Below are positions 3,001 through 54,506 of a DNA stretch of 64,000 nt, piece by piece. The notes beneath the pieces were generated by a model that had not been told where the DNA came from, made no database searches, and was given only the letters and a program-made list of their open reading frames with translations. A program made the translations under genes and the position numbers. Numbering within the stretch: position 1 is the stretch's first letter; every line of letters starts with the position of its first letter. This DNA is from Eucommia ulmoides (Eukaryota; Streptophyta; Magnoliopsida; Garryales; Eucommiaceae): positions 21,244,905-21,308,904 of the forward strand of contig CM028335.1 in NCBI GenBank assembly GCA_016647705.1, read 5' to 3'.

Positions 3001-6000
3001 AACTATTTGATACAACATTTTTTTAATGTTTCTAGATGAACTGCTGAACTCCTTCAATATCTTAGTGAGTTTTGAAATGAAGGATGATCATATATGGGGA
3101 TTGAAATAATACGAGTGTATTGAGTTAGAAACTTCAAGCAAAATGTATGTATTATATATGTGCCATAAGTGACATTCAATATATAAAGTATAAACATAGC
3201 ATCTAGAATTTTAATTGTAATTTGCCAACCAGGAAGAAGGGCATAAGCAAAAATCTTAACAATTACAAGTGCATTTCATCTTTCTATACAAGGTCAGTAA
3301 ATGCACCGAAGTACAGAAATTATTTCCACTTGAAGAACAAAACTAGAAGAGGTTATGAAATCTGCGTAACGTGTTACGAGTAAAAAAAATGATCATTATC
3401 AAAGGCTCAAAGCACACCTGAATGCCCAGGTAAGCTCCCTGTAGGGTGGGAAAACGGTTGTCTAGCAACAAGATGCAACGTGTGCCCATCTTCAACATCT
3501 AAGTCATATTAAGTAGCGAACAAGAAAAGCCAGAGATACTTTTTTGTGTTCCCTATTCATTGAACTTAAAAATAATCAAGGACTCGTTCTCAGTGAGACA
3601 ACTCAATCATACGCATTCTTATCCAAGAAAATAAAGAAAGAAGAAAATAGAAAAACAAGATATTTCTACTGATAATTTCCCCATAAAGAATCCAAGCCGA
3701 TGTATTTGTAAACCATAACTTTTCTAACTACCAAAAGATAAACAATAGGATTTTAAAAATTACAGTACACGAGTTCTTGCATAAAAAGAGTCATCTTTGT
3801 ATATATTTACAAGGGTGGAAAGAAAAGAACCATATCTCAGGAACGATGCAAGCAGCAGATACACTAGTGACAAGACATCAGCTCTAAGGAAAAAAGAGCA
3901 AGCACAAATATCATAACTACTGGAAATTAGGGCAGTACAGGTACATGCAATCAAAGTATGTCGAAACAGACATGCGAACCCTGACTAAATACTCTCTAGA
4001 CTAACAATAGGATAATACAAGTAAATGTATAAGGAACATGATCATTTGGAGTATATCACAATTACTGTTCTTTTCACATCTGATGTTTACCATTACATTA
4101 TTTTCATATACTAGAAATCAAATTTCATCATCAATTTCAGCAGCCATAACGAAAATGTTCTTTCTTTCTTCAACACATAAAGAGTGAATGAAAAAAAAAT
4201 AAGAAAGGGAAGAAAAAAATTAGAAAAGAATAGAAAAGTAACATTGGAAATGTTATAAGACCAAGGGTGTTATATGCTTGAGTGTTGGCCAGGTAAAATA
4301 AAAAATGATCGAGCATTGGGTAGGTAAATAAGAATCATGTTTAGAAAATACCTAAAATAAGAATGATAAGGTGGATGAATCAGAAAAAAAATTGAAGTCT
4401 TAAAATTATTCAACCTAAAACCATATGTCAATAGGTGAAGCAACTCATTCAATTAACATGCTACATTTGGAAGCGCCACTAAACCAATGTAGGAATTAAC
4501 ACCCTCCCTCACATGCATGATGCAACCCTAGGTTGCACGTGAAGTGATTGAACAAAGATTAAAGGAATATATCATAAGAGAGATCACAGATGGCCAAAGG
4601 GATAGAGGAGGGACGAAGGAGGCTACCCTAATCTAGCTATGCAATAGAGCATCAACCTAAAGCCATATGGCAATCCGTGACGTAGATCATTTGATTAGTT
4701 CAAGAGGCCCCAATAAATTGTGGAAGTTAATAAACAGAGTAATGATTGAGTACATAAGAAAAAAGTAACAAAGTAGCACAAATTGAATATAAAGTGAGAA
4801 AAAATTGTCTGCAATAATTTAGTCATATAAGGAATCATCTGTTAGAATGAGTCAATCGAAATCTTTCTTGCAAGAGGTGTAGAAGAGATTTGTTTAATAA
4901 TAAAGTTTGTGCTCCATGACTTTTCAAACCTATACATGCATTGCATAGCTTCGAAAGTATTGAGTTTATTCAAAAAGGAGACTCTTCAAGAGGGAGAGGT
5001 AGATCTAGAAGCTTAGATCTAGAAAATTTGGCCAGAACGAGATACAATTAGAAAAGACTTGATTGCATCTGATTTGATGGAGAAGAGGCGTCAACGAATA
5101 CATGGGACCGCTTACTTAGATAAATGCTTAGTAGATGCATGTATACATAATTACATATGAACTGTATAAAGCAAAATATATATATATATATATAATAATT
5201 TACCAAGCATCATTACTTGGAGCTAGGCTTCTGCCATGTAAACCAGTAAAGAAGAAAATACACCATAACAAATCTAAATGAACAGTGCACGTTTCAGAAG
5301 TTGGAATCTATATGACTTGACTGTGCATTAGTGTGCCTTGATGTTTGCACATCCTTCGTCAGGAGAAAGTGCTGAAGCCATAAATATTTCACAAAATTTA
5401 TGGGAAAACCCTTTCGGCCAAAAAGCTATAAATATATGAGTAAATTAAAAGAAGATTTTTATATTTGAAATCAGTGAACACTGGAAAGCTGGAATAGAAG
5501 AGAGATTAATTTCACTCGAATAAAAAGTACTCATAAACACGAGCAGAGATTAAAAAGTTCAAATATTAACAAGAACTTGGAAAAAATGGGCAGCCAATAC
5601 AAGAAAGCTCTTGCCATTGCAAGGTCTGGAGAGGGTCAAATGTACACAGCCTTAACCCTGAATACACAAAGGTTATTTCCAAAATTTAAACCTAGGACCT
5701 CCAGGTCACAATGGAGCAATCTTACACTATTGTACACACGGCTCACCCTCAGTAACAAGAACCTGAAAATGGATCATAAAATAAATAGAATAGAAAAATG
5801 GATACGATAAGCAGAGAGAAGTTGATCATCCTTCAGAACTCTGCCACGGCATATTAGACGTTGTTGCTCAGATAACACACCAGTAACAGAAGCAATCTGT
5901 TCTTTTAATTCAGGCACGGGCATCTGCAGGACAACAAGAATGAGGGTGCTTGCTTGTAAGTGAATGAGCCATTATTAATAAAGGAATAAGCAAAAACATA

Positions 6001-23395: not shown

Positions 23396-24805
23396 TTTAC
23401 AAGAATTCAATGCCGAATATAAATGCTAAACTAAAATTAAAAAAATTTAATGGTATAATTGACACATTAATTAACGATTGTACATAAGCAAGAGAACAAT
23501 AAAGATATAAGCATATAACATTAATTCCAGTGCACTAAGATAATATAAATTTGACTACAACAAAATCAAGAAATCAACCCACATGTCTATAATTTAAAAT
23601 AACAACATAAATGACAACATAAAAATTGAAGAAAAGTCAAAACATCTTCCACCACCGAAGAGAACAAACATACTTGACGTGATAATTCAACAAAAGAAAA
23701 AGGAAAAAAATATATATATAAGATATAAAATTTAAAAAATATATATTTTGTATACAAAATGCATTAAAAAATATTTATACCTTAAAACCGTTGGTTTAGG
23801 GCACAACTTCATTGCACTAGCTGCTCATTTGTAGTTGAACCTCGTAATCCTCTAGTGCCTTTAAGCATATATGTTCGTCCTCGTTGCTCTCTAACAACTC
23901 TCCTAATGCTCTCAGGTGTAGGAGTTCTTCCCTTAACGCTCTGTAAACTCTAGACTGCAATGTTTGGTTAAAACCTTCTATGTTTTAGGTTGTAGTATTG
24001 ACGCTCTTTTCTAAGTATATGCTTTCTGACACTATTTTTTTCATTCATTTTTCCTCTTTTGAATTCTCTCCACGATGGATTTACATCCCGCTCAGCGTTC
24101 TCTAAAATTTGCACAAATTCAAATGCAGTAAGAGGTCGATGATTCTCAAATATGTTCTCTTTCACAACAATATAATTTGATGGCAAACTATCGACAATTT
24201 GGTTCATTATATCTCTCTCACTAATTTTGCACCTATAATTCTGCAAACGCTTAATACTTAAAATCTTATTCATGTCAAATTCTCTCACGGAACAATTTCG
24301 TAAATAAAACTTGTAATAGTAGAATTGTTTTTCTTTACTCAACTCTAACCTAATACTCGTCTTCAATACAATAGCGAGTCGTACTATCATACCTAAGATT
24401 TAAGGACAATAATCGTAACATAAATAAATTATAATGAAAATATGAATTAAAATATATCAAATGTAGGCTTTGATATTGATATTACACACAAACATCTATT
24501 TAATAAATTACCTTTATTGTTTTTGTGAATGTCCTTTTTTAGTAAGATTTAAATTGAAAGTAACATGATTAAAGTGTAATTTCTCTAAGACTCTAGGGGT
24601 GCAAAGTGCAAAGACCACGCACAAAAACAAAATTAAACAAAAGTAGCAGTAAGATAAATGATCAAGAAAAACATGTGTTTAAAGTGTTTATTAGCAGTGG
24701 GATAAATGATCAAGAAAAAAAAATACAGACTGGGAAAAAAAATTGAACTGAAAAAAAAAATAAAAAACAAAAAACAAAACAGAAAAATGAGAAGGTGTTT
24801 ATTAA
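23396..24805. other. Flank with a gag-like retrotransposon relic
   Basis: A minus-strand open segment (23,968-24,390) encodes a protein with motifs such as MNQIVDSLPSNYIV and PLTAFEFVQILENAER. These resemble the gag/UBN2 region of Ty1/Copia-type retrotransposons. No pol region or LTRs were identified around it, so it is an isolated fossil fragment and the assignment is tentative. Downstream on the same strand (23,827-23,960) is a short basic open segment, discussed under findings. The rest is AT-rich with no recognised feature. Confidence 0.4.
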
Positions 24806-26890: not shown

Positions 26891-27519
26891 CAAAAATTGC
26901 AACTTTAAAACCCTGCACCTCTCAACCTTATAAGACTTGTGACAACTGCACTTGGGAAGAAAGTGGCCTGCCAAAGCTCCCAAAATTTCTGCACATTAAC
27001 AACCCCACCATCTGCACACTATCCTTCACAGTAGCAAGCTCCTAAATTTACATCCTAACACCCAGCCATGGAGACCAAGACACTGCCAATCTGCAACGAA
27101 TGAAGGGTAGCAAGCTATTTCCTAACTTGAATACACAACAGCAAATAATCAACAACACCACCTATCGCCTTTTTTTCTTTTTCTTTTTTTAACAGCAGAC
27201 CCTTAATTCAGTAGACCATCATCTTTATTTGATTGACGAATGACTATTTCACACTAAACCATGTGATCTGTCATAGAAATTAAAATATACGGCGTATGTG
27301 CTGTTTAGAATAACCAATAGTTGTGCTTCATCAAGTGTTCTTGTGCGTGTGAATTTTTTCTTTGGATATGTTGGTGACGGTCATATATTTTACATATATT
27401 TGAATACAGATTCCTCCAAGTCGATCAACATATAATAATTTGATCATTGCGTGCGAATAAGCTACTCTGTTTTTTAATTTACACTTGTATTATGTTTTTT
27501 CAATCAAACCAGTATATGT

Positions 27520-28417
27520 ATGTCGACTAATGATGCTAGAGCTAATTGGAAATATCCAAATCAATATAAACTTTTTCTGGATTTGTGTCTTGAAGAAGAG
27601 AATCATAACAAGAAATCTAGTGGAACTCTTAGGAAAGAAGTGTGGAATAATATAGCAGAGAAGATTGCCGAGAAAAAAAATATTGTCTTAACTCAAAAGC
27701 AAATGAAAAATCAATGGGACTATATGAAGAAAAAATATCAAACATGGACCAAACTAATGAAAAATACCGGTCATGGAAATGATCCATTGACAAACACGAA
27801 GAATTGGAGTGCCGAGCAATGGAATGCATACTTAAAGGTAACACGAAATACGATATTATTTATCAAATATATATTTAAATTACATAATAAAATAATAACT
27901 TATAAATGAAAAATATGATGCCTTACAGGACAATCCCGATGCTAAACAATTTCGATATGTTGGTCTGCAATATGCTGATGAAATGAAGGCGTTGTTTGAT
28001 GGTATAACAGCGACAGGGGAAGCATCATGGGGTCCTTCTAGGATAGGATTACCTTCCGATGATGTCCAGTACTCATCAACGTCTCAATCTATTGGACACG
28101 TACAAATTGACCTAGAGGGTGATTCTGTACCTTCATCTTCAAAAGTTAAGCGTCAGAAGAAGATGAAAAGTGATGACATCGATAAACAGCTACAAGTTAT
28201 TTTGCAAAGCTTAGAGAAATCGGATGGACCTACCATGGAGGAAGGTAATGGAGCTTTGGATAGTATGATAATGCTCCAAATGGATGACCCTTTATATATT
28301 GCGGCGCTAAGTATCTTTTGTGAGAGTCAATCACATCGAGAGCAATGGATGACATTAGTTCGAAAACCCGAAGAAGTTAGAATCAATTGGCTAAAAATGA
28401 ATGCGAAAAAATTATGA
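27520..28417 (+). CDS. Harbinger ORF1: Myb/SANT-like DNA-binding protein
   Basis: Two exons, 27,520-27,837 and 27,929-28,417, join at AAG|GTAACA ... TTACAG|GAC in phase, giving 268 residues. Residues 8-106 form a Myb/SANT-like trihelix-type domain with spaced tryptophans (NWKYPNQYKLFLDLCLEEE, LRKEVWNNIAEKI, QKQMKNQWDYMKKKYQTW, NWSAEQWNAYLK). After the junction comes the typical NPDAKQFRYVGLQYADE segment, then an acidic, serine-rich tail. Plant Harbinger ORF1 proteins of this kind bind DNA and help the nuclease enter the nucleus or act at the ends; that role comes from family knowledge. No stop interrupts the frame. The start is the first ATG of the open frame. Confidence 0.85.
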
Positions 28418-28619
28418 TTTCTTTGAAAGTAACGGATTTTGAATTATCTTTTGTTGAACTTCAATTATGAATTTTTATGTTAATGTAGTATTTGGATTTA
28501 TAAGGATTTGAGTATTCGCTTAGTGGTTTTAATATGTGACTCATTATGTATTTGTTTTTTTTAAGGTTTTATATATATGTGATATTTGACTTTTTATTTC
28601 AATGAAATATTTTTAGCAG

Positions 28620-29992
28620 GTGATTAAAATATTTTATTTTTGTTGTAGAATGAAAGTAAAGAATTCAAATATCGTCTTAAAGAAAGTTGCAGTTCTTTTA
28701 TTAATGAAAAAAATAAGGAGAAATAGAAGAAGACTTGATACCGATTCCTCTCTTAGTGGAAAATTATATATAGAAGAAATTGTTAACGGAAATGATTCTC
28801 ATTGTCTCGAAGTGTTGAGGATGAAGATTGACCCATTCATAAGGTTGTGTACTTATTTCGAAAACAAAGGATGGCTAAAAGATAGTTGTTACATTTCCGT
28901 TAAAGAGAAAATTGCAATATTTCTCTTAATTTTAAGTCACAATTCAAGAATTCGTTGTGTGAAGAGAAGATTCAACCATTCAACTCAAACTATACATAAA
29001 ATTTTCCATGAAGTATTGGATGCAATGATATATTTTTCTAAAGAAATGATCATCCTGATAACAAGCAATGAGAGTTCAAATCAACACCATTAACGCCTTA
29101 GGCAAATATTTCAGGTAAAATATCTAAATTGTTTGTTTAGTAGTTGATTTTGGTGTTTTGTTTGAATTAACCGATTCTTTTTAAAAGGTGCTGTAGGGGC
29201 ACTTGATATAACTCTTATTCATGCGGTTATTTCTCCTGATAAGCAAGTTCCATTTAGAGGAAGAGGGAGAGGATAGTGTTATCAAAATGTGCTTGCGATA
29301 TGTGACTTCGATATGATTTTTACATTTTTATGGGCTGGTTGGGAAGGTGTTGCACATGACGCAAGAGTGTTGTCAGAAACTATGAATGATCCAGCGAACA
29401 ATTTTCCATTTCCTTTGCCAGGTAAGTTCTTTTTATATTATTTTTCATATTAATTTAATTGTATAATACAATTTAGTATATTTATGAGTTATGCGATTGA
29501 ATAATATTTCTACATATTAATTATACAGATAATTATTATTTATGCGATGCTGCATATATGCATACAAGGAGATTTATGGCGCCCTATCGTAATGTACGAT
29601 ATTGGTTGTCTGACTTTAGGAGCAACGGTCCTAGAACGAAAAAAGAACTTTTTAACCATGTTCATGACAAATTACGGAATGTAATTGAACGAGCTTTTGG
29701 GGTTTTGAAAATGCGTTTTCCAATCTTGAAATTGATGCCATCATATACATTTGGAGTGCAGAGAAATATTGTTATTGCTTGTGTAGCTATTCATAACTAT
29801 CTTCGGAAAACAATTGTAACTGATGATTTTTTTGACCAATTTACTGAAGGTTATGAAGTAAATGAATCATCTGATGATGAAATAATTACTTCAGAAATTG
29901 AAACTAGAAGGGGAAGCAAGCAAGCAGATCAAGCATATATGATTAACTTGAGAGAGAAAATTGCAATTGAATTGTTTAATTCCCGAATTTAA
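28620..29992 (+). pseudogene. Harbinger transposase (HARBI1-like DDE nuclease), lightly damaged
   Basis: Three exon-like segments lie downstream of ORF1. Segment 1 (from 28,620 or 28,651) carries the N-terminal helical region (YISVKEKIAIFLLILSHNSR, then FNHSTQTIHKIFHEVL). Segment 2 (about 29,190-29,420) has the first catalytic Asp in ALDITLIHA, then QVPFRGRGRG and LAICDFDMIFTFLWAGWEG. Segment 3 (29,529-29,992) has the second Asp in YYLCDAAY and the Glu in NVIERAFGVLKMRFP. All three acidic DDE residues are therefore present. Segment 1 loses its frame near 29,090, and an in-frame TAG lies near 29,275, so as it stands it should not make active enzyme. Introns are about 29,115-29,188 and 29,422-29,528. 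Confidence 0.82.
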
Positions 29993-31938: not shown

Positions 31939-35334
<3,396 letters not shown>

Positions 35335-41559: not shown

Positions 41560-43060
41560 TGGAAATGGGCATAGAGAACATGAAATTCAAAAATCAAATG
41601 CATAAAATAGAAAATACAAAATTTACTAAAAATAACTTATCTTAACCAAACTTTCCATTAATAACTACAACAATTTCTGCGGGGCAAAGATGTCCTATCG
41701 TGACAGTAAATTTAATGACGACAATTAAACGCTAAACACAATTTACGATTTTTTTTAAAAGAACTCTTAATGTGATTTATTTTCTAAAGAAATTCTTAAT
41801 ATAAGTAATAAAAATCTCATTTTTTTAATCCAATTTCCTTTTAGAGTTGTTTACATGAATATTAGTTTTTTCTTATTTTTTTTACTGAAAAATAGTTATA
41901 AATAACTTTTTTACAAAACCCACATAGGTTAGTAAGCCTGGGTATTAAAATGTAAATAATCGAAAAAACTCACCCAAACCCAGGATTGACAATTCTGGAT
42001 ATACGGTGGATTTTTTTTTTTTTTTTTTTTTTCATATAAATGCCAAACCCGGGGTTGGCAACCCCGGATACAAAAGAATGGTAATTTTTTGTTAGTGGAC
42101 ACGTTGCGTGAATGACACTTTGCACCCCGAAGTTTGGTAGTGGAAGGAATGGTGGTTTTTTTTTTTTTTTTTCTATCACTAACTAAGAGGTGTAATTATC
42201 CAAAGCTAACTACAATGTTATAACTATTCTTTTGCGCAATTTTCATCTAGTCCTTTAGGTTTTGTCATTGTCTTAATTTAATCCTTAAAGTTTGAATCTT
42301 TTCAATTGAGACTATTTATTGTGAATAGTTTAAGGACCAAATTAAAACAAGAGTGTTTATGTGGCAAATCCCTTATTTTATCCTTAATTTTTAAAAAGTC
42401 TCATATGCAATTGCAACTTGTGTTTTGATCTCGCCCATAAAAAAAAAAAAAAACACAATTCACACACTGTATTCTCGCAGTTGTATCTAATTTGTGTGTA
42501 AAATATTTGTAAGATGTAACAAATATTACACAAATACATGCAACATATTATATGTAATTTGTAACCTATAAGATTGTTTGGTGATATGATTAGTTGAGGT
42601 GTATGTAAGTTAACTTGCGCACACTTTATCATAAACCGATTTTTTTTTTTTTTAATTCATAAAATTATTTCTCTAAAACTTATTTGTTAGGGAGGGAACA
42701 TGGAAACACCCTTGCTTCAATCTAGTCCTTAAAGTTTGAATCTTTTCAATTGAGACTATTTATTGTGAATAGTTTGAGAATATGAAATTCAAAAAGTCGA
42801 ATGGATAGAATGAAAAATACAAAATTTACTCAAAAATAATTTACCTTAACCAACCTTAGCATTAATAGCCACCACAATTTTTGCAGGGCAAAGATGTTTG
42901 ATTGTGACAGTAAATTTAATGACGAAGATTAAACACTAAACACAATTTACAAAAAATATTTTTAATAAAGAACTCTTAATATGATTTATTTTCTATAGAA
43001 ATTCATAATATAGGTTTAAACAATAAAAAATTTATTTTAAAATCCGGCTTTCCTTTTAAG
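41560..43060. repeat. Composite direct duplication, ~280 bp arms
   Basis: The block 41,571-41,850 (containing 'tgacagtaaatttaatgacg') recurs at 42,778-43,050 with about 10-15% difference. The shorter block 42,256-42,340 (agtttgaatcttttcaattg) recurs at 42,722-42,780, joined directly to the second copy of the first. No coding content. A small relic near 41,985-42,070 shares the 'cggggttggcaacccc' palindrome with the foldback element at 44.5 kb. Confidence 0.8.
42560..42660 (+). mobile_element. SINE 3' fragment
   Basis: 'ttggtgatatgattagttga' followed by 'ggtgtatgtaagttaacttg' matches the tail of the fuller SINE at 59.6 kb (gaagtgattagtcgagg, then tgcgcgtaaactgg). The tRNA-like head is missing. 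Confidence 0.55.
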
Positions 43061-44450: not shown

Positions 44451-44496
44451 TTTTTAATTTTTTTTTTTTGTACAAATTGTTGATAGAGAGTTTTTG

Positions 44497-46286
44497 GAGT
44501 TCTTTACGTAATAAATATAAAAAAAGAAAAAAAAATTCTGACAACAGATGTATTTGAACTTATTTACGCAGGCCGCGTATTTCGGGGTTGGTAATCCCGG
44601 GAACTGAGATCCCGGGATTGCCAACCCCGGGATCTTCCATTTTTTATTTTTTTTTATTTGGACATATGGTCCCGGGGTTACCAACCCCGGGACCTTTTGG
44701 TCCCAGCTGCACAAGCAGCTGCTAGCTGCTTGTGCAGCTGGTTGAAGCAGCTGCTGCTGCTTCAGACGTGCAGCTGCAGCAGCAGCTGCACGTGGAGCTG
44801 CAGCTCCTAAAAAAAAAAAAAAAAAAAAAAAAAAATCAAATCGTTTTGGCCCACTAAATTTATAAAATTTTCGGCAATTTTGAGTTGATTAACGGTGATC
44901 TATCGATATTTTAAATAAATTTAATTTTTTTGTGCATAAATTAAATTGAAAACACTCCATAATGCTTTTTACAACACTAAAAACGGACATGTGGATGAAT
45001 TTTAAAAAATCGTCAAAGTTGGCCAGATGAGCTATTTCGGTAACGGCAGAATTTTTTTCGACAATTTAGAATTAATAAAAGATTGCATTATTCATAACAG
45101 AAATGAACTAAATTTTTTGTATATAAATTATGTTCATAACACTACATAACAAAATTTAGAACACTAAAAACGGACTAGTGAATAATTTTTAAATAATCGT
45201 CAAAATTGGTCAGATGAGTTGTTTCGATGACGATGCAATTTTTTTTGAAAACTTAATTAACAAAAATGGTCGTCTATCCGTAACAGAAATAAATCTGATT
45301 TTTTTGTATACAAACCATGTTCATAAGAGCGATTATTTAAAAATTATTTACTAATTCGTTTTTGGTGTTCACAATTCAAAAACACTATATTACACTTGAA
45401 AGTTTGAATTAACATAATTTTGCACTCGGAGGTCCGTTGAGGGCGATTTTTTTTTTAAAGTTGGATCTGATCTGAGTCATTACTCTGGATTTTGAAGATT
45501 TCAATTTTACCAATAGGACAAGATGCACGCTCTCAACGAAGATTACAAATTTAGTCACCTAACACTTGAAATTGAAAATTGAAGGTGAAAATGGACTTTA
45601 TTTGAAAAAATAGTGGACTTCCGGCAGTTTACGGCGCTTAGATCTCAAAAAAATACCCAAAATCAAAAAAAAAATCGCCCCAAACGGACCACCGAGCGCA
45701 AAATTATGTCTATCCAAACTTTTTCTATTATTTTACGTAAATTTTATTTTCTCTCGATAACATATTATCCGTTTTTGGTGTTTTCGATTTTATTATTTAG
45801 CGTTATGAACGTAGTTTGTATGCAAAAAAATCAGATTTATTTCTGTTACGGATAGACGACCATTTTTGTTAATTAAGTTTTCAAAAAAAATTGCATCGTC
45901 ATCGAAACAACTCATCTGACCAATTTTGATGATTATTTAAAAATTATTCACTAGTCCGTTTTTAGTGTTCTAAGTTTTGTTATGTAGTGTTATGAACATA
46001 ATTTATATACAAAAAATTTAGTTCATTTCTGTTATGAATAATGCAATCTTTTATTAATTCTAAATTGCCGAAAAAAATTCTGTCGTTATCGAAATAGCTC
46101 ATCTGGCCAACTTTGACGATTTTTTAAAATTCATCCACATGTCCGTTTTTAGTGTTGTAAAAAACATTATGGAGTGTTTTCAATTTAATTTATGCACAAA
46201 AAAATTAAATTTATTTAAAATATCGATAGATCACCGTTAATCAACTCAAAATTGCCGAAAATTTTATAAATTTAGTGGGCCAAAAC

Positions 46287-46329
<43 letters not shown>

Positions 46330-46626
46330 TAAGGAGCTGCAGCTGCTGCTGCAGCTGCACGTCTGAAGCAGCAGCAGCTTCAACCAGCTGCACAAGCAGC
46401 TAGCAGCTGCTTGTGCAGCTGGGACCAAAAGGTCCCGGGGTTGGTAACCCCGGGACCATATGTCCAAATAAAAAAAAATAAAAAATGGAAGATCCCGGGG
46501 TTGGCAATCCCGGGATCTCAGTTCCCGGGATTACCAACCCCGAAATACGCGGCCTGCGTAAATAAGTTCAAATACATCTGTTGTCAGAATTTTTTTTTTT
46601 TTTTATATTTATTACGTAAAGAACTC
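44497..46626. mobile_element. Foldback MULE-like transposon with ~825 bp inverted arms
   Basis: Arms 44,497-45,326 and 45,803-46,626 are near-perfect inverted copies beginning GAGTTCTTTACGTAATAAAT. They are flanked by an exact 10 bp duplication, agagtttttg, at 44,487-44,496 and 46,627-46,636, which fits Mutator-type insertion (usually 9-11 bp). Each arm contains a GC palindrome field (cccggg, ccaaccccggg), a CAGCTG/GCAGCT hairpin field and a ~170-180 bp internal repeat (cagatga.ctatttcg). The loop (45,327-45,802) carries no gene. Open frames in the arms are mirror copies of each other and are not genes. High arm identity suggests recent activity or arm gene conversion. Confidence 0.88.
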
Positions 46627-46639
46627 AGAGTTTTTGAAC

Positions 46640-48801: not shown

Positions 48802-51800
48802 TGTAACGACCTGATTTTCCAAGACCACCACTTAGTTTTTCTTATAGAAAATTCTACTCCAAATATTTCACCATTAATAAATAAATTAATATTTAATAAG
48901 ATAATTATACTCAATTAGTATAATTATTTAATTGAATTCTGAAACATTAACTTGAAATATTTATTAATTTACTAACTTCAATTCTAATAATAATAATTAT
49001 ATGAATGTCAGTGACTTTAATTTATATTATGCATTACCTCTAATAATCACGTACACTATTGTCAGTATGTTGATTTACTAATAATAAATCAATTATTTGA
49101 TTCACAAATCTCCTTTACGTAAGATAATGGAATTATATTATGAAAAATACACGTTATATATGATTCCTATTAGTAATTAACAAAATATATATTTAAATCA
49201 TTTAAGAATATGTGTGATAATAATTGGGGTGTAATTATTATTTATTTTAGCTTGAATTCAATTATAAAAATTAATATTGATACAAAAATTTGACAATATG
49301 ATAATTATACTTATCTAATTAATCAATTCAATTTTACAACAGTAAATAATAAGTACAACTATTACAAAATTAATAGAAATTTAAATAAAATTCCAGTCGC
49401 TATTTCATTCTTCCCAGCCCTGCAATCAAAACTATGGGGTTTTTAGCTAACGCTCAGTAGAACTTCAACCTTTTCTAATACATGTATCGAATCTGGCCAA
49501 AAATAAACACATAACAATCAAATCCCAGATAAACACATAAACGTGTACCTCATATAATTTTCACATAGGGCGTATTCATAAATATTTCATGCGAACTAAC
49601 AGTTAAAATTTAGCATCATGTAATCAAGAGAGATAAATTAAATACCAATATTAAAAGAGTTAAAAATTCTACTTGAAATCTGAAGGCGAAATCTAAACCG
49701 AAATTGGTATTTCCTTTTCAAAAGCAACACTCCTCCATATATATATATATATATATATATACATTAAACACTGTAATTTTTTTTTCCATACAAGGAGAGA
49801 TGATAGAAAGAGCCGAAAAAGAGCAAACATTTCATTTTCCTCCAAAAAAAACCGTGGTATAAAAACGACCAAAAACTTATGATGCATATCCATGAAAAAG
49901 GCAATCATCACTTATTATTATTATTATTATATCATAAAATTCATACACATTACACGTGTAACTAGGGGTTGTATGGTTTTTGAATACTCATTATTATTAT
50001 CCTCTTAATATATCTATATATACAAACAAGAGGATTTGTTGCCGTCAATTTTTTTTCTTTAATTTTTATGGCCACCAACGAATGCTCAAGGGTGAAGTTT
50101 TATAAAAATTACACTACCCCCACAATTCTGAACTAATTCATATTAAGTCCAATAATTATATTTATCCTCCCAAAATTATCAAGCATTTATTATAAATTTT
50201 CATAATATAAAAACAACCCAAAAATATTAAACTTATATAGAATAATATTTTAAAAAACATAAATTTAACCTTTAACTCCAAAAATTATCAAGTATATATT
50301 TATACCACAAATTTACAAACCGTCCATAAAAAAATTAAACTTTTATAAAATAATACTTTTCAAAAATATAAATTTTCGGGGTATTACAATCGACCCCCCT
50401 TAAATAAATTTTGTCCCCGAAATTTCGTTTAAAACATTAATAATTCAGAATTGCATCGCACGGTCATGTTAGTCACACTCAATTCTAGAATAATTATTCT
50501 CTATGTAGGGTCCCATAACCGAAAGTCACCCATATTTCATAATCATCAAAATCTATTCCACACATCGTGACATCCCCATTCGCAGTGGCCTACATTATAT
50601 CCAACAACTTACGGACATGGTGCACTTTGATCAGTAACACCTAGCACAGACAACCAATTGCCAAAAAATCTTATATTTCTAAATACTTCCGCTGCGCTAC
50701 TATGATAAAAATAACAATAAATAACAATATATCTTTAAAATATCACGATAGCCTCACTGGATTGGGTCTATCTCAATTCTAATAGGTCTAGGACCTCGAT
50801 AATTTTCTTATTTGGCATGACTTTTCAAGTCAACTGCCATATCTCATAACCAATATTCATCAATTTTATCGAACATCTTAAGCCAAAATATCGCGGCCAA
50901 CATCATAATCAATAGATAGTTCAAATTCCTCGTGGACTATCTCGTAAGATTAAAAAATAATAATTTCTAATATCCACATCGAAATTTCAATAATCTTGTA
51001 AACTTTTCATAAAATATCAATACAATCCAAACCTCAAATAACAGATTTTCTGAAATACGTCTGAAAACTCATAAATACTTCTCAATTACGTAAATACATC
51101 CTAACATATATAAATACTTCTTAACTACATAATTACGTTTAAAATCGTATAAGTATGTCTTGGAACACATAAATACATTTCAAATCACATAATTACGTTT
51201 CAAACCACATAAATATGCCTCAAAATACTAAAATACCTCTTAATCATATAAATATATCTCAAGTGCATAAATACATCTCAACTACATAAATGCGTCTCCA
51301 AAGTCACGAGTTCAACATTAAGTTTAATACTCACGTAAAATGTATATAAAAATATTACACATAGCCCCTAAATATTCAACAATTACCCCACACCCCGACT
51401 CCACTTATTATTAGTAGTGGACCAATATCTATCTGAATATTTTTATCGGTGTACTATTTTGGTAGTATAAAACTATTTTATAGATCAAATATTTTTATCA
51501 GAATTCACTTTCCAATCAAATATAGCCGCACTGGGCAGTATTCAAATTTCAACAAAAATATCACTGTAACAGAACAACCAAATTTAAATCAACTGGTTAA
51601 ATCACTTGTATATAATAAAATAACATATTTTCTTGCCAACCATATGATCGTTTACCTCACGATCGGGAGTTATAACGGTATTGTAACCTGTACAACTGTG
51701 CCATCTATGGTGACTATCAGTGTTAGGGCAATTTAATATCTCCAATGGTAGGAGCAACCACCCTACAAGACTAACAACATATATCCACCATGCAGGATTT

Positions 51801-54506
51801 GCCTGATAGGTAACAATATATATTCACATCTTGCAGGACATGCCATCCTGACGAGAAGACAATTATGACATAGTCGAATAATAAAAACTATTTTCCACAT
51901 TTAAAAATTTACTTGATCCGCGTAACGTTATAAAATAATCCATTTTAATAAATTTTTTTTTTTATTTTTATGATTGACAATTTACATAGAAGACAATGCA
52001 CATGCTCTCATCATAATATAAAAAGAATTTATGGATCAAGTATATTTATCAAGCACCACTTTCCAAAAATACCACACACCAAGCTGGAAAAAAATTTCAC
52101 TACCACCATTACAAGAAAATAATGCTTTTAAATCAACTAATTAAATTATTTTGATATATAATAAAATATCGCACACATATTTCCCTATTAGCCATAGGAT
52201 CATTTCACCTCATGATCGGGAGTTACGATAGTACCTTAACCTGTACAACTGTGCCATCTAAGGTGGCTATCAGTGCTAGGGCTATTCAATATCTCCAATA
52301 GTAAGAGCAATCACCCTACAGGACTTGACTGACAGGTAACAACATATATCCACATCTTACAAGATATGACCTCTTGACGAGAAGACAACTATAGCATAGC
52401 AGGATAATAAAAATAATTTTTTCACTTTTCATATTTTACTTAATCCATTAATCATTGTAAACTGTCCATTTTTATCAACATTTTTTTTTCTACAATTTAA
52501 TACGAAAATATAATTTGACGATTTATATAGAAGACAATAAACATCTTTAAGCCAATCTTTTCAATTCAACAACATATCCTATGGTCCACGACTAACACGA
52601 TACTAATACAGTCTCACTTTACTTACTATAGGTAAATTGCATTAATCAAACGTCACCTAAGATGTCGATATATTTTGCACCAGATCATATTATATTTATC
52701 TGTGCACTTTTGCCTTCTAATCTCAATATTTTTATTTTTTTGCGTTCTTGGTTCTATGCGTGTGGATATGTTTCTACTGTTGCTGTCTAGTTAATATTCA
52801 ACCATTTTAAAATTATCATCATATAAGTGACAAGTCATGCTGATAATATAACCTACCAAGTACCTCTCACGTTTTCTGAATTTACTTTAATCTTACGTAG
52901 TTTTTCTCAAATTGTCGAATGTTTAGTGTGTTCTCTCTCTCTCTCTCTCTTAACAACTAAAACAATATAAAATAACTCATAAACCATCCAATAGTATTTT
53001 ATCCTTAAAAAAATCAAAATAAAGCATGTTATGCATTCCAATTGCAACTATAGGGAGCAAAATGAAATAATGGTAACAACTGGGTGCAAAGTGTCAAACC
53101 ACCCAAAAAAAAAAAAAAAAATAAAAAATAAAAAATAAACGTCAATGCATGTTCACAGTTTTTTTTTTTCATTCAGTTGCCTTGTACGAAAACTTAAAAA
53201 AAAAAAAATAAGCAAGGGAAAAGATATCAACATATTACAAAGAAACAAACTGAAAACCCTTTCTTGAAGTGCCAATAGTAAATTTAGTAATAGTTAACAA
53301 CAAATTACGAAGGTAGTGTTTGGTTCTATATATATTTTTTTCCCCTAGAAAATAAAATTTATTATTTATAATATTAATTAATTTATGAATAATGGGTACA
53401 ATAACTCAAGCCTAAGGCGATTGTAAACCCGCTTTGATACCACTTGGTTTCTCCTTTAGAAAATTTTACCCCAAATATTTCACCATTAATAAATAAATTA
53501 ACATTTAATAAGATAATTATACTCAATTAGTATAATTATTTAATTGAATTTTGAAACATTAACTTGAAATATTTATTAATTAACTAACTTCAATTCTAAT
53601 AATAATAATAATAATTATATGAATGCCAGTGATTTTACTTTATATCATGCATTACCTCTGATAATCACATACAGTATTGTCAATATGTTGATTTACTAAT
53701 AATAAATCAATTATTTGATTCACAAACCTCCTTTATGTAAGATAATGGAATTATATTATGAAAAATACACGTTATATATGATTCCTATTAGTAATTAACA
53801 AAATATATATTTAAATCATTTAAGAATATGTGTGATAATAATAGGGGTGTAATTATTATTTATTTTAACTTGAATTCAATTATAAAAATTAATATTGATA
53901 CAAAAAATTTGACAATATGATAATTATACTTATTGAATTAATTGATTCAATTTTACAACGTTAAATAATAAATACAACTATTACAAATTTAATAGAAATT
54001 CAAATAAAATTTCGGTTGCCGTTTCATTCTCCCCAACTCTGCAATCAAAACTATGAGGTTGTGAGCCAATGCTCAGTAGATCTTCAACCCCTTCTAATAC
54101 GTGTATCTAATCCGTCCCAAAATAAACATATAACAATCAAATCTCAGATAAACACATAAATGTGTACCTGACATAATTTTTCATAAGGCGTATTCATAAG
54201 TATTTCATGCGAACTAATAGTTAAAATTTAGCATCACATAATCAAGAAAGATAAATTAAATTTTAAAAATTCTACCAAAAATCCGAAGTTAAAATCTGTA
54301 CCGAAATTGGTATTTCCTTTTCCAAAGCAACACTCCATATATATATACACACAAACTAAACACTGTAATTTTTTTTTCCATAAAAGGAGAGATGATAGAG
54401 AGAGCTGAAAAAGAGCAAATATTTTATTTTCCAAAAAAAAAAAAAACCGTGGCATAAAAACAACCAAAAACTTGTGATGTATGTCCATGAAAAAGACAAT
54501 CATCAC

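Follow-up and report, generated by a model that had tools for sequence, protein, structure and literature searches.

A foldback element that shares its ends with long MULEs carrying a plant mobile domain

Anatomy of the element

The window, by which we mean the whole stretch of 64,000 nt analysed here (C11:21244905-21308904), contains a foldback element of 2130 bp at positions 44497-46626. The element is flanked at 44487-44496 and 46627-46636 by AGAGTTTTTG, an exact 10-bp duplication; this 10-mer has two exact occurrences in the whole window, both of them the element flanks, against 0.36 expected. The left arm (44497-45330, 834 bp) and the right arm (45800-46626, 827 bp) are identical at 804 of 816 aligned bases (98.5%). 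They are separated by 29 gap columns and 12 substitutions. Nine of the substitutions are transitions; of the three transversions, two sit at the edge of the A-run. A first-pass annotation of this DNA had described a foldback of about 2.1 kb with long, near-identical arms and an exact 10-bp duplication, and both descriptions are borne out. The features of the element are as follows.

44487..44496, no strand: left target-site duplication AGAGTTTTTG (exact 10-mer match)
44497..44695, plus strand: outer left terminal inverted repeat (element 1-199) with CCCGGG-centred palindromes inside (inverted-repeat and long-MULE comparison)
44703..44805, plus strand: CAGCTG palindrome cluster of the left arm
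44809..44835, plus strand: A-run of 27
44913..45326, plus strand: left inner arm, 187-bp tandem repeat, 2.2 copies, 76% matches
45331..45799, no strand: central segment of about 470 bp between the arms, with a shorter nested inverted pair at 45399-45464 / 45657-45722 (85% complementary)
45800..46216, minus strand: right inner arm, 187-bp tandem repeat; the tandem-repeat call begins at 45768 and counts 2.4 copies
46289..46327, minus strand: T-run of 39
46332..46422, minus strand: CAGCTG palindrome cluster of the right arm
46430..46626, minus strand: outer right terminal inverted repeat (element 1934-2130)
46627..46636, no strand: right target-site duplication AGAGTTTTTG (exact 10-mer match)

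From the outside inwards, each arm is composed of an end sequence, an A-rich stretch, GC-rich CCCGGG-centred palindromes, CAGCTG palindromes, an A/T run (27 bases on the left, 39 on the right) and the 187-bp tandem repeats (about 2.2-2.4 copies, 76% alike), with the CCCGGG- and CAGCTG-centred palindromes lying close to both element ends. Arms of 834 and 827 bp containing internal tandem repeats place the element in the foldback type.

No stop-to-stop frame of at least 120 aa lies wholly within the element. The single frame of this size that overlaps it (144 aa, 44454-44888, minus strand) matched no Pfam family at E 0.001, which agrees, for frames of at least 120 aa, with the earlier description of the element as devoid of genes. 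An Rfam search gave 0 matches, and a search of the window for further copies returned only the element's matches to itself.

Copies in the genome and their target sites

The genome (946.7 Mb in 391 contigs) was searched with the element, and the best 40 of 2174 candidates were scored, revealing many full-length copies. Intact copies are therefore over-represented among the 40 examined, which comprise 39 fetched loci and the window copy. Seven of these were excluded from the count of duplications: in L030, L031, L040, L046 and L047 the two ends were not both recognised, L017 consists of two joined elements, and L042 is a tandem array. Among the 33 remaining two-ended copies, 27 have an exact 10-bp duplication at their ends, one of them (L015) within a C-run and uninformative. 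The duplication is 11 bp and exact in L032, 10 bp with one mismatch in L036 and L043, and 9 bp with one mismatch in L028; none was found at the ends of L037 and L041. Windows displaced outward matched with at most one mismatch in only 2 of 228 cases, in a control of 38 rows that also took in L017, L042 twice, and two long elements (L048 and L049, described below).

The 29 exact duplications, counting those of L048 and L049, have an A+T content of 70%, near the 68% of the window, indicating no clear target preference; in 26 of the 29, position 9 is occupied by A or T. The element ends are GAGTTCTTTAC and lack a G-run opening, an unusual feature that the first-pass annotation had pointed out correctly. 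A G-run at the ends is not known to be a requirement for MULE membership. At position 12 of the end sequence the copies fall into G and C types. A 17-base end, GAGTTCTTTACSTAATA, occurs 536 times in the genome compared with 5 times for its reversed control, and no match to the 12-base end sequence was found in the papers searched. The genome-wide check of ends and flanking duplications on which the earlier reading had been staked thus turned up many copies, mostly consistent in their ends and duplications: the element belongs to a family of many copies whose ends are precise and whose duplications are mostly 10 bp long.

Several loci have unusual arrangements. L042 (G000:C3:6252555-6262211) consists of four tandem foldback copies, in units of about 2.13-2.16 kb, with three identical 134-bp spacers. 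At L017 (G000:C14:53417375-53422683) two opposed foldbacks, each without its inner end, lie 35 bp apart, and their outer ends show no duplication. The flanks of L016, L018, L019, L020 and L026 hold an extra end-like sequence less than 600 bp from the element (at most 5 mismatches in 22, a count made with no control); in L018, L019 and L026 this is followed by a second AACTTATTTAC motif, arranged as in the element.

Long elements with the same ends

Among the first 100 ends listed, out of the 536, we found 30 facing pairs under 20 kb, of which 10 span 0.7-2.2 kb, two span 4.9 and 5.7 kb, and 18 span 6.8-11.8 kb. All 10 short pairs, both middle-sized pairs and two of the 18 long pairs (L048 and L049) were read. 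The element at L048 is 8850 bp long and that at L049 9113 bp, and each has an exact 10-bp duplication (TATCTCCTTA and CTAAACCAAG, respectively). L048 encodes, on one strand and in this order, a 735-aa open frame with MULE (2e-16) and DBD_Tnp_Mut (6e-11) domains, a SWIM frame (4e-7), and frames with a plant mobile domain (PMD; 5e-60 and 1e-15). In L049 the DBD_Tnp_Mut and MULE domains lie in two frames and are again accompanied by PMD frames (1e-58 and 3e-16); no SWIM domain was matched in the frame scanned. A search of solved structures with the L048 PMD frame returned 0 relatives at E 0.01. Genes of the PMD kind are used by plants in gene silencing. By their domain content, L048 and L049 are MULEs carrying a plant mobile domain.

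At each end of L048 and at one end of L049, the terminal ~200 bp match the outer part of the foldback with 85-89% identity, and at the remaining end of L049 with 73%. For the left terminal repeat (element 1-199) the range is 85-88%. Beyond this outer part, just short palindrome and A/T-run pieces are common to the foldback and the long elements. The earlier designation of the element as MULE-like gains support from these comparisons, since two ~9-kb elements encoding MuDR/MULE transposase domains have these ends and are flanked by exact 10-bp duplications, and MULE and MuDR domains were found in 2/2 long elements read. The duplication length of the window family likewise falls within the 8-11 bp range given for MULEs in an excerpt of PMC6446971. 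The window element is thus a non-autonomous MULE with the long elements as its likely partner, and it was probably moved by the enzyme of longer elements that have the same ends and a PMD gene. The shared ends are compatible with a relative of the L048-type transposase as the mover, which falls short of proof for that transposase itself.

An element from another foldback-bearing superfamily, for example P-type Galileo or Drosophila FB, could also look like this one, as long arms with internal tandem repeats occur in Galileo and FB as well (excerpts of PMC3688188 and PMC3573991). However, membership in the Galileo / P superfamily would call for a partner with a P-type transposase, and both partners that were read encode MULE-type transposase; we consider this explanation very improbable.

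L058 and L059, the two elements of middle size, retain the PMD side but lack much of the transposase region, and their duplications have one mismatch. Ordinary internal deletions of the long elements therefore also exist.

Other foldbacks with the same ends

All 10 short pairs among the first 100 listed ends proved to be foldbacks, and they fall into five structures. Six belong to the window family (L010, L015, L053, L055, L056 and L057). The other four (L050, L051, L052 and L054) are palindromic over nearly their whole length, with halves 76-92% alike, and have only the outer ~165-310 bp in common with each other and with the window element; L050 is scarcely more than these common outer parts. 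Among the eight end-listed foldbacks read for duplications, L052, L055, L056 and L057 have an exact 10-bp duplication, L050 an exact one of 11 bp, L053 an exact one of 9 bp, and L051 one of 11 bp with one mismatch; none was found at the ends of L054.

One of these structures offers a view of its likely source. Both arms of L052 match the same stretch of the L048 element (472-691), at 85% and 78%, and since this stretch lies near one end of the long MULE, an origin of L052 from one MULE end is suggested.

Spread of the palindrome and possible source of its arms

The 410-bp centre of the window family is 90-100% identical across 33/33 copies. When clean arm segments of the 12 closest copies were compared, 24/24 arms were nearest to the same-side arm in another copy. 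Across all 33 copies this was true of 50/66 arms, with 16/66 nearest to an other-side arm, and 9/66 arms resembled the opposite arm of their own copy more closely than they did any other copy, so that inheritance of the arms side by side is evident only among the closest copies. Evening-out of the two arms within a copy does not appear to be the rule in young copies, and may have occurred in older ones. The closest pair, the window copy and L009, differ by just 1.2%, which indicates recent, though undated, movement.

One might suppose that every foldback arose separately where it now lies, through inverted duplication of a MULE end at that place, with no transposition of the family as a palindrome. 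The existence of five differing structures with common ends, which show no mutual match beyond the outer ~165-310 bp, would fit such a scenario; but the 33 copies of the window family have both arms and the centre in common, and 27/33 carry their own exact 10-bp duplication, making separate formation very improbable. Indeed, that the copies have both arms and the same loop in common shows that the palindrome spreads as a unit, and the young copies make this clear.

We favour a different reading, and with considerable confidence: the element is a non-autonomous foldback MULE, probably moved in trans by a long-MULE transposase, with arms probably derived from inverted duplication of one end. The transposase would bind the terminal repeats common to both, palindromes included, and mobilise the foldback by a cut-and-paste mechanism. 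To judge from the anatomy of L052, the arms may have arisen by inverted duplication of one end of a related element, consisting of a terminal repeat and a 187-bp tandem array, after which the completed palindrome would have spread.

The inner arm is absent from L048 and L049, and a search with the inner-arm profile found neither of these long MULEs. One 16-mer taken from the 187-bp repeat is present 1278 times in the genome, compared with 0 times for the reversed control. The first 100 listed places of this 16-mer form 59 clusters, of which 16 have the foldback order, 12 are same-strand and 31 are single. At one locus (L060, G000:C2:18530500-18538500) a same-strand 187-bp array of 6.6 copies (97%) at 3343-5272 adjoins a divergent element with PMD and transposase-like sequence, and end-like sequences lie on both sides. 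Same-strand arrays of this kind show that the repeat is not confined to foldbacks. No convincing direct duplication was found around the L060 array, nor was the far end of the divergent PMD element found in the 15.7 kb read. The L060 array sits within a larger inverted repeat with GA/TC runs.

A possible role in silencing

The foldback could instead be mainly a silencing locus, in which read-through transcription gives a long hairpin RNA and small RNAs against the terminal repeats of the long MULEs, as has been suggested for Mu killer of maize. The RNA of the element is predicted to fold with 807 arm-to-arm pairs at -1485 kcal/mol, and exact 21-mers (low-complexity words excluded) are common with L048 in 33/33 copies and with L049 in 32/33; for 24-mers the numbers are 30 and 31 of 33 copies. 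Nearly all of these words lie within the terminal repeats. They span just 199-259 bp per long element, however, and none lies in the transposase frame. Mu killer's own hairpin model is, moreover, presented as disputed in an excerpt of PMC3440606.

Singleton substitutions were also considered in this context. In the 12 close copies, C>T/G>A singletons are roughly 10 times as frequent as A>G/T>C ones (0.0126 per CG site, 0.0106 per CHG site and 0.0136 per CHH site, against 0.0012 for transitions at A/T sites) and are alike in the three contexts, an excess of the methylation type. But the excess is present in the loop too, with CHH counts of 11/1140 in the loop, 36/2438 in the inner arm and 14/902 in the terminal repeat. 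The loop rate of 0.0096 is lower than those of the inner arm (0.0148) and terminal repeat (0.0155), but not significantly so (loop versus arms, Fisher p 0.24), and a methylated transposon of whatever shape could give such an excess. These transitions fit a methylated element and do not show that the arms make small RNAs; we discard them as a pointer to hairpin arms. Taken together, a primarily silencing role seems to us rather unlikely.

A broader form of this idea is more doubtful still: the MULE lineage might repeatedly spawn palindromic satellites from its own ends, which as sources of double-stranded RNA corresponding to its terminal repeats would act as a brake on the PMD-carrying transposon. 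If true, measure and counter-measure would reside inside one transposon family.

Relation to known systems

Returning to the non-autonomous foldback MULE that we favour, such families are known in kind, as excerpts of the papers cited here describe for MuTAnT and Tm1 and, by citation, for FARE. MuTAnT of Medicago truncatula (PMC4486113) is likewise a foldback MULE: its arms are long and modular, its non-autonomous copies are numerous, and a long partner bears the transposase. It is mostly 200-300 bp in size, makes 9-bp duplications, has GGGG ends and inserts into TA microsatellites, whereas the present family is about 2.1 kb, makes mostly 10-bp duplications, has GAGTTCTTTAC ends, uses varied targets and has a partner carrying a PMD as well. 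The Tm1 Mutator/Foldback elements of root-knot nematodes (PMC3169594) share composite arms with internal tandem repeats; their arms are 93% alike on average and some elements encode a putative transposase. Tm1 differs in its mostly 9-bp duplications, tandem motif of ~14 bp, asymmetric 7-bp motifs outside the repeat and animal host (PMC3169594). FARE of Arabidopsis comprises plant foldbacks with long palindromic repeats, a likeness by description alone (via PMC4486113 and PMC3169594), and is now classed among MULEs (PMC4486113).

Mu killer of maize (PMC3440606) is an inverted duplication of a MULE with both terminal repeats from one end, and the anatomy of L052 suggests the same. It is a single locus with transposase sequence, in contrast to the multi-copy families described here and to the window family, which is without transposase sequence. 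MULE transposase and plant mobile domain within one element are also found in the PMD-carrying MULEs of PMC5418596, whose fusion proteins occur in several grasses and Amborella and for which an anti-silencing use has been suggested. In the elements read here, the PMD frames lie downstream on the same strand.

What is noteworthy here is a PMD-bearing partner together with several palindromes that have its ends: five foldback structures, one of them with a visible likely source. Because the foldback family is tied to concrete long partners carrying transposase and PMD, it becomes testable how MULE ends become still-jumping palindromes, and whether palindromes feed the silencing of the parent element.

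Other features of the window

When the window was scanned for terminal repeats accompanied by a duplication, the hits were the element, with nested hits inside it, and one weak candidate at 48920-53520; the same scan of five block-shuffled windows gave 2, 0, 0, 1 and 0 matches. The candidate, near control level, is a possible 4.6-kb element with an 11-bp direct repeat (ACTCAATTAGT) and imperfect ends (15/20). Two end-like sites, at 41844 and 42975, were considered as a possible pair and rejected, as they have no matching duplication. A Myb/SANT-like frame and a DDE_Tnp_4/Plant_tran frame at 27478-29992 mark a transposon remnant, which we take to be Harbinger-like. A copia-type gag match that is under its cut-off lies at 23968-24399, and a ribosomal S17 N-terminal exon is found at 32166-32555.
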